In this document: piece by piece, positions 3,524-7,311 of the stretch | Layout: every line of letters begins with the position of its first letter | Position numbering within the stretch: the first letter of the stretch is position 1 | From: an uncultured Bacteroidota bacterium | GTDB lineage: Bacteria > Bacteroidota > Bacteroidia > Flavobacteriales > Flavobacteriaceae | Assembly (NCBI GenBank): GCA_902554655.1 | Contig: CACDPE010000001.1 | Coordinates: forward strand, 124,001-188,000 | Reading direction: 5' to 3' | DNA length: 64,000 bases | Program-made: the position numbers and the translations under genes | Notes under the pieces: model-generated | What the model saw: only the letters and a program-made list of their open reading frames with translations | The model's database searches: none | What the model was told of the DNA's origin: nothing

Positions 3524-3943
3524 CTATGGAGTGTAGTTTATAGTATTTTTAGCTTTTTCTTTCATAATTTTTCTTATGAAAGTGTGATCTTTTTCTGACT
3601 TGATCTTTACTTTTAAAAATTTACTATCAATATTAAATGTGTATTCTTTTTCAGTGACTTTAAAAACTACTAATTTATAATATGGTATAACTAAACCATA
3701 TGTTTCTAAAAGTGACCTAAAGTATATAATAATACCTTTTACTCTTAACTCAATATTACAATGATTTGTATTTTGATCAAGAATTAACAGATTCTCTATT
3801 TCTTTATTTGCTTTTGTAATTAGTAATTTTCCCGAACCAACACCTCCTTTTTTTATTTTTTCAAAAAAAGAATATGACTTTCCAATTAAATCTTCAATTT
3901 CATTTTTAATATTGTCATTTTGATACGAAACATTTCTTAACAT
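3524..3943 (-). CDS. hypothetical protein
   Basis: 139 aa uninterrupted ORF in a gene-dense context, no recognised motif. Confidence 0.55.
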   Translation of the reverse strand: MLRNVSYQNDNIKNEIEDLIGKSYSFFEKIKKGGVGSGKLLITKANKEIENLLILDQNTNHCNIELRVKGIIIYFRSLLETYGLVIPYYKLVVFKVTEKEYTFNIDSKFLKVKIKSEKDHTFIRKIMKEKAKNTINYTP

Positions 3944-3980
3944 TTAAAATAATTATCAATAATTATACTAAATTTAATTA

Positions 3981-4988
3981 TTGAAAAATTTAATTTCATT
4001 ATTTGTATTAATTCTATCAATTCTGTCTTGTAGCGACAACAATAATGACTCAGAGCTGGTTGAATCCCCTTGTGTTGAGGCTGATTATGTATCATTTAAA
4101 ACGTCAATCAGTTTACCCAACTCAAGAGCCTATGGTTCATCAACTTTTTTAAATAATAATATTTTTATATCCAGAGGAGCAAAAATAAATACCGATGGTG
4201 TTTCTAATTCACGTACTAGTGATATAATTAGGTATGATACCAATAATGAAACTTGGTCTGAAATTGCAAACGATCTCATTAGCCTTAGATACGGAGATAT
4301 TGAAATTTATAATTCAAAAATTTATTTACTTAATGGCGATATAAGTGGTGGAGGTCTTAATAATTCAGTCGAAGTTTTTGATTTAATAAATAATGAAATA
4401 AAAATATTAAATGGTATAAACCCTTATCCTGTTAGAGAAAATGGAAGTGATATTTGGAAATTTCATAATATTATTTTTTTTGGTGGAACAGATGAAAATG
4501 GAGACTGCTCAGATAAAATTGTAAAATATAATTTAAACGATAATTCATTTGAATTAATAGGTAATCTTCCATTTGCTATTTGTAATACTAAGGGTGAGAT
4601 AATAAACGATAAATTATATGTCATAGCAGGATATTTAGGTTCAGAAGTACTTAATAAAATTTTAGTATATGATTTAAATAATAATTCTTTGATAGATGAA
4701 ATTTCTATCCCAGTCTCAATCTCGGCTCATACAACTTCAAAATATAAAAATAAAATTTTTATAAAAGGCGATTATAATATCCAAAATTTATTTGCTGTTT
4801 TTGATACAGATGATAATTCATTTAGAGTTGTTGAAAGTGATGTTGCAAACTCTAGACATTTAATGTCTGAAATAGTTAATGGAAAATTTTATGTTTTTGG
4901 AGGTAATACAACATCTCAATTTTCTACTATGACTGATAAAGTTCAGTACTTAGATCTAGATAATGAGGGTTATTTTTGTTATGATTAG
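3981..4988 (+). CDS. Kelch-repeat lipoprotein
   Basis: Lipoprotein signal LSILSCSDNN; repeated beta-propeller-like blocks (KIYLLNGDISGGG, NIIFFGGTDENG, KLYVIAGYLG, KFYVFGGNTT). Confidence 0.75.
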   Translation: MKNLISLFVLILSILSCSDNNNDSELVESPCVEADYVSFKTSISLPNSRAYGSSTFLNNNIFISRGAKINTDGVSNSRTSDIIRYDTNNETWSEIANDLISLRYGDIEIYNSKIYLLNGDISGGGLNNSVEVFDLINNEIKILNGINPYPVRENGSDIWKFHNIIFFGGTDENGDCSDKIVKYNLNDNSFELIGNLPFAICNTKGEIINDKLYVIAGYLGSEVLNKILVYDLNNNSLIDEISIPVSISAHTTSKYKNKIFIKGDYNIQNLFAVFDTDDNSFRVVESDVANSRHLMSEIVNGKFYVFGGNTTSQFSTMTDKVQYLDLDNEGYFCYD

Positions 4989-5004
4989 TTTAGAATTTGT
5001 ATTG

Positions 5005-5079
5005 GGGTGATTAGCTCAGTTGGTTCAGAGCACTACCTTGACAGGGTAGGGGTCACTGGTTCGAATCCAGTATCACCCA
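5005..5079 (+). tRNA. tRNA-Val (anticodon GAC)
   Basis: Acceptor stem GGGTGAT/ATCACCC, D-arm AGCTCAGTTGGTTCAGAGC, anticodon arm CTACC-TTGACAG-GGTAG (GAC at 34-36), T-arm ACTGG-TTCGAAT-CCAGT. 3' CCA not encoded. Confidence 0.95.
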
Positions 5080-5189
5080 CAAAAAAATACACACTGATTA
5101 TCAACGCTTTACAAAACTAAAAAGTGTTCCCAAATTTTGACTCGAACTAGTGAAAATTTAATTTTTGTAATTAGAAACCTAACATTTTC

Positions 5190-6248
5190 TCAGAGTATTG
5201 TATCCCTTTGGTTTGTAAAGTATTTTAAATTATTAGATATTTTTTTATTTGCTTTTTCTCTTATAAAATCAATTAAAATTTTATCAATGATTTTCTTATT
5301 TTCATCAGGATAAGTCATCCTAATTAGATTAACTTTTTTAATCCATTTTCTAATCTTACTAATTGAGTTTTTATTAAGTGTTTTTAGAACTTTAACTCCC
5401 ATTTTGTCTAAGGCAACTGCGTTCATATGTTGTTCAAATTGATATTTCATTGGAATAACCAGTAATTTTTTTCCAAGAAATAGTGCTTCAGATGGAGTTT
5501 CAAAACCAGAATTACATATTACTCCTGAACACGACAATAAACTTTCTTCAAACTCCTCATATCCTGTAGGAAAAAATGAAATATTTCCTCTCCTATACTT
5601 CTGCTTTGTATGTTGGGAAAAAACATGCCAATTTTGCTTGTATATTTTTGAAAATATAGCATAAAGATACTCATCTGAATATGATGGTAAATATGTAGTT
5701 ATATGAGAACCATTTTTAATTTCTTTATTTCTTAGGTTGGATTTAATTATTGGGAAAAAAAAATTTCTATCATATTTTTTAAAATGAAATCCATAGCCTT
5801 TCTTAATAGGTGAATAATATTTTAAAATAAATGACTGAATCAGATTCACTTTTGACCCTTTTGGTACTTTATGTGATAATAAAGAGAATTGATGACTCAA
5901 TGCAATACAATTTTTTTTTCTTTTAAATAAACATGCCCAAGCAGATATAGGTTCAAAATCATTAATTATTAAATCGTATTTGTTAACTGGACAATTATAA
6001 ATCTCTCTAATAAATGTTATTGGATTGAATAATTTAAATGTCTTGAAAAAATCAATTCCTCCTTTTTTTCCAAATACAAAACTCAAGCCTTTATATTGAT
6101 ATTTTATATCATGTTTCAATTTTAATGATGATTGAGTTCCACTAATCAACACATCAACCTCAGCTCGATTTTTAAAAATTTTAATTAATTCATTTGCTCT
6201 AATTATATGTCCGTTTCCTGTTGACTGAACTGCGTATAAAATTTTCAT
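5190..6248 (-). CDS. glycosyltransferase family protein (MurG/MGDG-synthase-like fold)
   Basis: MKILYAVQSTGNGHIIRANEL N-terminus and GVICNSGFETPSEALFLGKKLLVIPMKYQFEQHMNA sugar-nucleotide binding signature. Confidence 0.8.
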   Translation of the reverse strand: MKILYAVQSTGNGHIIRANELIKIFKNRAEVDVLISGTQSSLKLKHDIKYQYKGLSFVFGKKGGIDFFKTFKLFNPITFIREIYNCPVNKYDLIINDFEPISAWACLFKRKKNCIALSHQFSLLSHKVPKGSKVNLIQSFILKYYSPIKKGYGFHFKKYDRNFFFPIIKSNLRNKEIKNGSHITTYLPSYSDEYLYAIFSKIYKQNWHVFSQHTKQKYRRGNISFFPTGYEEFEESLLSCSGVICNSGFETPSEALFLGKKLLVIPMKYQFEQHMNAVALDKMGVKVLKTLNKNSISKIRKWIKKVNLIRMTYPDENKKIIDKILIDFIREKANKKISNNLKYFTNQRDTIL

Positions 6249-7111
6249 GATTTAAAATTTTTAAGCATAGATTCAAAAAGTTCGTTTGTTGATTTATCAA
6301 TTGTTGATTTTCTTTCTTTTTTCAGATTTTTGAAATTATTACGATCATATTCGAACAAACTCCAACTATCATTGTTGTATTCCAGTGAAGTTAAATTTTC
6401 TATCCAATCTCCAGAGTTCAAATATGTTATTTTTTTTCCCTTAATAATTTGATCCCTAATAACTGGTTGATGTATGTGTCCACAGACAACAAAATCATAA
6501 TTATTTTCACGAGCTATCCCGAGAGCAATATCTTCAAATTGATTGACATATTTCACTGCTTCCTTGACCTTGTATTTTATGTATTTAGAAAATGATATTT
6601 TTCCTTTACCCCTCCATTCCCTAAAACGATTAACAGTAAAATTTAATCTAATCAAAAAATCATATCCTATTCCTCCTAATTTTGCGACCCATTTAGAATA
6701 CTTCATTGTTATATCAAATACATCACCATGAAAAAACCAAGCTTTTTTACCATTTAATTTTAAAACTGCTTTATTACTAATTTTAAAATTTTTCATTCCA
6801 TAACCATTAAATTTCCTAAGAACTTCATCATGATTTCCTGGTAAATAATAAATCTTGGTTCCTTTAGATAAAAAATCTAAGAGTATTCTTATTACTTTCA
6901 AATGAGATTTTGGAAAGTACTTTTTTTTGAACTGCCATATATCAATTATATCACCATTTAGAATGATTTTTTTAGGTTTGATAGTTCTCAAATAATTAAT
7001 TAATTCATCAGCTCTGCACCCTCGTGTACCTAGGTGAATATCTGAAAGAACAACTAAATCTATTAGTCTTTTTTTGAACACATCAGAAAGTATGACTGTA
7101 ATGTGAATCAA
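6245..7111 (-). CDS. UDP-2,3-diacylglucosamine diphosphatase-like metallophosphoesterase
   Basis: Calcineurin-like motifs: DLVVLSDIHLGTRG, LNGDIIDIWQ, LPGNHDE, GHIHQPVI. The true start may be a few codons downstream of 7111. Confidence 0.85.
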   Translation of the reverse strand: MIHITVILSDVFKKRLIDLVVLSDIHLGTRGCRADELINYLRTIKPKKIILNGDIIDIWQFKKKYFPKSHLKVIRILLDFLSKGTKIYYLPGNHDEVLRKFNGYGMKNFKISNKAVLKLNGKKAWFFHGDVFDITMKYSKWVAKLGGIGYDFLIRLNFTVNRFREWRGKGKISFSKYIKYKVKEAVKYVNQFEDIALGIARENNYDFVVCGHIHQPVIRDQIIKGKKITYLNSGDWIENLTSLEYNNDSWSLFEYDRNNFKNLKKERKSTIDKSTNELFESMLKNFKS

Positions 7112-7146
7112 ATGTTTTTAAAATAATAAGATAATGTTAAAATTTA

Positions 7147-7183
7147 AAAATTAATGTGGACAGAATCTGTCTACATTAATTTT
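7147..7183. other. 17-bp stem hairpin in non-coding DNA
   Basis: AAAATTAATGTGGACAG-aat-CTGTCTACATTAATTTT, one G:T pair only. Confidence 0.85.
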
Positions 7184-7227
7184 CATTAGTTTTGTTTAAG
7201 TGAAAGTGATACTACGGGAAACATAAA

Positions 7228-7246
7228 GTGTTCCCTTGGGGAACAC
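7228..7246. other. 8-bp perfect inverted repeat (GTGTTCCC-ttg-GGGAACAC)
   Basis: Direct reading; GTGTTCCC also occurs just downstream of tRNA-Val at 5124-5131. Confidence 0.85.
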
Positions 7247-7288
7247 CCTAAAAAATTAAGCTTTTGAAAATGAATAGCTTAAGATGTG

Positions 7289-7311
7289 AGTTCGAGTCCA
7301 GTATCACCCAC
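7289..7311 (+). repeat. degenerate copy of the tRNA-Val 3' end (possible att relic)
   Basis: AGTTCGAGTCCAGTATCACCCAC versus GGTTCGAATCCAGTATCACCCAC at 5058-5080: 21/23 identical, and no tRNA body upstream. Confidence 0.85.

Follow-up and report, generated by a model that had tools for sequence, protein, structure and literature searches.

A 2.2-kb integrase-free gene cassette at tRNA-Val(GAC) of an uncultured Flavobacteriaceae bacterium, probably moved by a recombinase acting in trans

The 64,000-nucleotide stretch of DNA analyzed here, referred to below as the window, contains a single tRNA gene recognized by ARAGORN, tRNA-Val(GAC) (5005–5080, plus strand), and the displaced copy of its 3' end that lies 2.2 kb downstream raises the question of how the two genes between them came to be there. 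An earlier note on this DNA proposed that the arrangement is possibly a relic integration site with attL and attR, a remnant or passenger island whose integrase had been lost, and that the enclosed genes are either cargo or native. The repeat itself is exactly where that note placed it: the last 23 nucleotides of the tRNA gene (GGTTCGAATCCAGTATCACCCAC, 5058–5080, plus strand) recur at 7289–7311 on the same strand (AGTTCGAGTCCAGTATCACCCAC) with 2 mismatches. Nowhere else in the 64 kb does the core match at ≤3 mismatches, and there were 0 matches in 100 dinucleotide-preserving shuffles. The tRNA gene is intact. The bases upstream of the copy read ...AAGATGTG, with no tRNA body, and since the 5' T-stem arm ACTGG is absent there, the T-stem of the copy cannot pair, as had also been noticed earlier.

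Comparison of filled and empty sites identifies the two repeats as attL and attR cores. The congeners are streamlined marine Bacteroidetes, uncultured and represented by SAGs and MAGs that are incomplete and fragmented, with one genome per species inside each lineage. Six of them (G009, G023, G025, G027, G029, and G030) have no cassette at tRNA-Val. In G009, AAAAATTATGAAAAAAATAATTTTAATTTTAG stands directly after the tRNA, and nearly the same sequence comes after the displaced repeat, beyond the cassette, in the filled sites of G012 and G008. G083, which belongs to another family, has a cassette of 2,870 bp with the junctions ...GTATGACCCAC/AAAAAAATATCC ... GGTG/AGTTCGAGTCCAGTATGACCCAC/ATATTCC; the site is empty (...GTATGACCCAC/ATATTCC) in G148, G139, and G293; most of the proteins that flank it there are 90–99% identical to those of G083. 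With a third pair, G831 (filled) and G827 (empty), exact filled and empty pairs are known from three lineages. Insertion is exact, placing the cassette directly behind the 3' end of the tRNA and ahead of the next gene, and the tRNA stays intact. The reading of the locus as an integration site is therefore borne out by relatives of several lineages in which tRNA-Val abuts the next gene, and the two enclosed genes, which are absent from these empty sites in congeners and other lineages, are not common to all relatives, as native genes had been expected to be. As a separate observation, in G025 the 5' part of tRNA-Val is duplicated exactly over 39 nucleotides (L082, 9361–9399) ∼730 bp upstream from the intact gene, and an ORF of 194 aa separates the two; this is perhaps another type of insertion.

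tRNA-Val(GAC) is the cassette site throughout both genera and the other family examined. Most right-end cores start AGTTCGAG, with the element-specific A1 and G8 that are also seen at 7289–7311, and the tRNA has GGTTCGAA, as expected if this part of the core belongs to the element. The acceptor-stem base is C in the genus of the window and G in the others; the copy in the tRNA always matches the host, and the attR of G001 carries a foreign G at this position. The G in the attR of G001 hints at a crossover near the last bases of the tRNA, the alternative being mutation.

The cassette is a discrete 2,231-bp unit (5081–7311) bounded by the 23-bp tRNA-Val 3' end, in which the cargo lies between a left end of ∼73 bp (5081–5153, plus strand) and a right end of ∼142 bp (7147–7288, plus strand), both of which are kept across unrelated cargo. 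The left end contains GATTATCAACGCTTTACAAAA and one GTGTTCCC (5124–5131), and the right end has GTGTTCCC/GGGAACAC repeats at 7228–7235 and 7239–7246 that resemble arm-type sites; the three copies starting at 5124, 7228, and 7239 are the only ones in the 64 kb. In alignments of 19 left ends, including some from another genus and another family, and 15 right ends, the terminal conservation extends beyond the tRNA core and ends where the cargo starts, and within the genus full matches to the right end are confined to tRNA-Val sites. Both cargo genes of the window are on the minus strand. The first (5190–6248) encodes an MJ1255-like glycosyltransferase of 352 aa (PF13528, 3.4e-27; TIGR00661, 6e-40 and 137.5 bits, under the cut-off of 195.9). 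The second (6245–7111, TTG start) encodes a calcineurin-like metallophosphoesterase of 288 aa, for which the phosphoesterase part of the earlier assignment holds (PF00149, 3.9e-13) but the likeness to LpxH is weak (TIGR01854, 40.6 bits versus a cut-off of 190); its structure-database match is PDB entry 8s7f (E = 6e-4).

Cassettes with the same ends and unrelated cargo are found at tRNA-Val also in a second genus and in a different family. The 15 that are bounded on both sides span 985–2,895 bp, and at least nine unrelated cargo types share the two ends. The glycosyltransferase and LpxH-like pair is found in the window, G001, G008, G012, G022, and G028; the other cargos are a caspase C14-TPR protein of 888 aa (G012, second in tandem), a 621-aa protein that is weakly DUF4344-like (G022, first in tandem), a GmrSD_N-HNH protein of 874 aa (G083), a 368-aa protein to which no family could be assigned (G420, with a 47% identical relative in G007), a CobW GTPase (G421 and G829, and split in G835), a 477-aa protein likewise of no named family (G423), a T5orf172/MUG113 protein (G835), and a DUF2927 protein (G831 and G825). 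PADLOC gave defense-type matches for the caspase and GmrSD cargos. Tandem arrays are present in G012 and G022, with two cassettes each, and also in G835. No integrase domain or family was found in any cassette ORF examined. The reading of the two enclosed genes as cargo is likewise supported. In G024 (L083), the glycosyltransferase is 96% but the LpxH-like cargo 85.6% identical to that of the window, and this mosaic cassette indicates that recombination between cassettes occurs.

The cassette of the window moved between species recently, as judged from sequence comparison. Its glycosyltransferase gene has 99.4–99.5% nucleotide identity to the copies in G001, G006, G012, G022, and G028, and the two cargo genes together are 98–99.5% identical to those of the same genomes, in which core genes are 70–79% identical, but the closest relative, G026 (core 97%), has an older copy with identities of 87% (glycosyltransferase) and 91% (LpxH-like gene). 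Comparison of trees for the enclosed genes and the core genes, which the earlier note had proposed, led to rejection of agreement in both directions: approximately unbiased (AU) tests reject this genome (G000) and G026 as one clade on the cassette data (p = 1.4e-5) and the cassette relatives as one clade on the core data (p = 4e-55). The ∼99% identity of the cassette in species at ∼70% core identity, together with the diverged copy in G026, indicates recent movement, and the description of the locus as a relic that lost its integrase is not supported.

We consider it likely that 5081–7311 represents a site-specific but non-autonomous integrative cassette and that a tyrosine recombinase acting in trans moves it. 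The two ends would carry the attP core and the arm sites of the recombinase, which would be supplied by a phage, an integrative and conjugative element (ICE), or a plasmid and would join a circle containing a right end–core–left end attP to the attB of tRNA-Val, keeping the tRNA intact. Such mobilization is inferred by analogy, and the GTGTTCCC repeats are suggestive of it. The cargo would be a selectable trait for the host, with surface glycan and lipid enzymes here and defense-like proteins elsewhere.

Since cassettes pass between species and families but do not code for an enzyme that could move them, something else must do so. XerC/D-size recombinases (PF00589) are present in 23 of 23 congeners. 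Additional integrases at tRNA-Asn or tRNA-Met in this genome (C13), G028 (C7), and G012 (C1) were rejected as candidates, since the spacers between tRNA and integrase are unlike the left end. Two of these loci have features of their own: in C13 (L134, 2963–11075), a tRNA island of this same genome that does carry an integrase, a 346-aa tyrosine integrase beside tRNA-Asn(GTT) adjoins a run of genes resembling a type I restriction-modification system, and in G012 (L136, 3012–6918), two near-identical pairs of small ORFs (64 and 70/76 aa), 3.5 kb apart, flank an ORF of 711 aa; all of this lies upstream of an integrase of 533 aa at tRNA-Met. Phage_int_SAM_5 integrases of f11 genomes, three at tRNA-Val(TAC) and others at tRNA-Pro, -Asn, or -Asp, are likewise without the left end or the GAC core. 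The three at tRNA-Val(TAC) (L178, L179, and L180) are 419-aa proteins encoded straight after the tRNA in three f11 genomes and are a possible model for the helper. In these autonomous elements, GGTGTCC direct and inverted repeats lie between the tRNA and the integrase; the layout resembles that of the GTGTTCCC repeats and suggests that the left and right ends of the cassette are arms for a tyrosine recombinase supplied in trans.

The ends were not found in 396 other sampled genomes of the order, apart from G083, and, among 400 sampled genomes of the family, were not found outside the known lineages. Scanning of 84,980 genomes with a 22-mer of the left end returned cassettes of the known lineages and two Bacteroidales matches (Segatella and UBA4230), which have no tRNA and no further similarity to the left end. 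Six pattern scans of IMG/VR yielded no contig with genuine core, right-end, or left-end arm patterns: the four core matches fall within coding sequence of phages, which in three cases spells VSPTN, and a single match to the left-end 22-mer lacks the rest of the left end and a tRNA. BLAST searches against phages and plasmids gave weak short matches only, none of them convincing. No recombinase of matching specificity, autonomous element, or circular form was found in these searches. The host genomes are SAGs and MAGs, within the genus 55–87% complete, and a helper may therefore have escaped detection.

The earlier proposal, that this is the remnant of a larger island with its integrase deleted, corresponds to a cis-mobilizable element (CIME), a decayed ICE or IME with attL and attR but without genes for integration and transfer (PMC5704250). 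The cassettes share with CIMEs the two att sites, the missing integrase, and the tandem accretion, and some copies have clearly decayed, at the ends in G026 and G011, by loss of the core in G006, and to a left end only in G002. CIMEs are decayed ICEs or IMEs, whereas here one common pair of intact, near-identical ends frames unrelated cargo in units of ∼1–3 kb, always integrase-free, in two genera and another family; independent decay would not yield a common pair of ends, and the variety of cargo argues against descent from an ICE or IME. Neither a parental ICE or IME nor any larger integrase-bearing island with the same ends, as the earlier note had envisaged, was found in the 398 genomes of the order, the 400 of the family, or the 84,980-genome scan. 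Decay of a larger island is therefore an unlikely origin.

The immediate history of the copy in the window provides an argument for a second alternative, spread by homologous recombination only, through transformation or transduction, with the conserved tRNA and ends as regions of homology. The DNA at 3700–5004, outside the cassette, which includes part of the preceding gene (3524–3943) and a Kelch gene (3981–4988), is 92–97% identical to G028 (core ∼79%), and the resemblance to G028 runs from about 3.5–3.75 kb to attR. This segment is absent or diverged in the sister G026 (core 97%), which has no Kelch gene; its identity to the window drops from 98% to 70% across ∼3.5–3.75 kb and is back at 93–96% downstream of attR. 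This DNA was probably imported with the cassette by homologous recombination, and the cassette now in place probably displaced an older one, arriving with the upstream Kelch gene in a block from a G028-like donor; this would be the last step in this genome. The mosaic cassette of G024 is also compatible with such exchange. Import of a G028-type block does not, however, explain the copies in G012, G022, and G001, which are without these flanks: cassettes are near-identical where the flanks show no detectable similarity, as in the window and G012, which are 99–100% identical from the tRNA through the attR core with no clear similarity just outside. Moreover, empty sites, base-exact insertion, and tandem arrays require site-specific joining. 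Homologous recombination as the sole means of spread thus appears quite improbable, although it probably acted in the last step here.

Integron-like movement, in which a palindromic right end folded as single-stranded DNA would be the recombination substrate, is suggested by the size of the cassettes (1–3 kb, one or two genes), the tandem arrays, and three palindromes adjoining the core. The first of the three is a 17-bp inverted repeat on the cargo side (7147–7183), which is stable as single-stranded DNA (−12.3 kcal/mol, z −7.9), and TTAAGCT...AGCTTAA (7256–7282) adjoins the core. However, changes in the paired positions of these palindromes are no more compensatory than in shuffles, so they may be either protein sites or hairpins. 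Integron cassettes, CALINs (PMC11389934), and XerCD pdif modules are similarly small, arranged in tandem arrays, and interchangeable in cargo; these modules lack an integrase and are mobilized in trans, but they use attC or dif sites, whereas the target here is the ordinary duplex att core of a tRNA 3' end flanked by ends of ∼73 and ∼142 bp, the cassettes contain no integrase, and no integron integrase was found (with no dedicated model used). We regard a hairpin-based mechanism as very improbable. That the two genes are native, with a repeat due to chance or to local duplication, can be dismissed, since, although the pair also exists as ordinary neighboring genes in G015, the site is empty in close relatives, identity reaches 99% between distant species, and shuffles gave no chance matches.

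The cassettes resemble tRNA-targeted elements in the direct repeat at both ends, the intact tRNA, and the precise empty site, but have no integrase of their own. Tycheposons are similar in that they are reportedly integrative elements that target tRNA genes, exchange their cargo, and live in ocean bacteria with small genomes. They are described as 4–200 kb in length, with a tyrosine recombinase in the element (PMC10872708), in contrast to the 2.2 kb of the cassette in the window, the 1–3 kb of the family, and the absence of a recombinase. PICMI-type minimal satellites (PMC10803314) are also minimal marine hitchers that rely on the machinery of others, but phage genes, packaging genes, and packaging signals were not identified in the cassettes. 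In layout, the cassettes agree with the additive cassettes of flexible genomic islands, where variable cargo, sometimes in tandem, lies beside a conserved tRNA and is closed by a repeat of its 3' end, as here. Such cassettes are known from marine and freshwater bacteria, several of them streamlined, namely Ca. Actinomarinales (PMC7771536), Methylophilaceae (fGI-2, PMC10872708), and Alteromonas (fGI1, PMC4119200), and exchange between genera has been reported; as described there, the tRNA repeat is their sole defining feature, whereas the present cassettes have two long common ends, sizes of 1–3 kb, and exact empty sites. By analogy, the family may work like integron, CALIN, or pdif modules while lying among the tRNA-repeat cassettes of flexible genomic islands. 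Related tRNA-repeat cassettes are thus known, and what is new is the common ends and the absence of any integrase; no published description of these ends was found in a literature search largely limited to papers outside subscription.

The hosts have genomes of ∼1–1.5 Mb and few mobile elements, but exchange defense and surface genes rapidly. It is conceivable, and we put it forward tentatively, that streamlined marine Flavobacteriales draw on a common pool of integrase-free cassettes of 1–3 kb with tRNA-Val as the platform, comparable with integron cassettes, in which one mobile helper, a phage or ICE, would supply the recombinase and through which genes for defense and the cell surface would circulate among genera and families. 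The recognizable left end, right end, and core provide a sequence handle with which copies can be found in ocean data, gains and losses counted, and the helper hunted. The pattern of a tRNA repeat beside a variable gene thereby becomes a defined element, and a search for its mover becomes feasible. Integrase-free cassettes are not necessarily dead relics.
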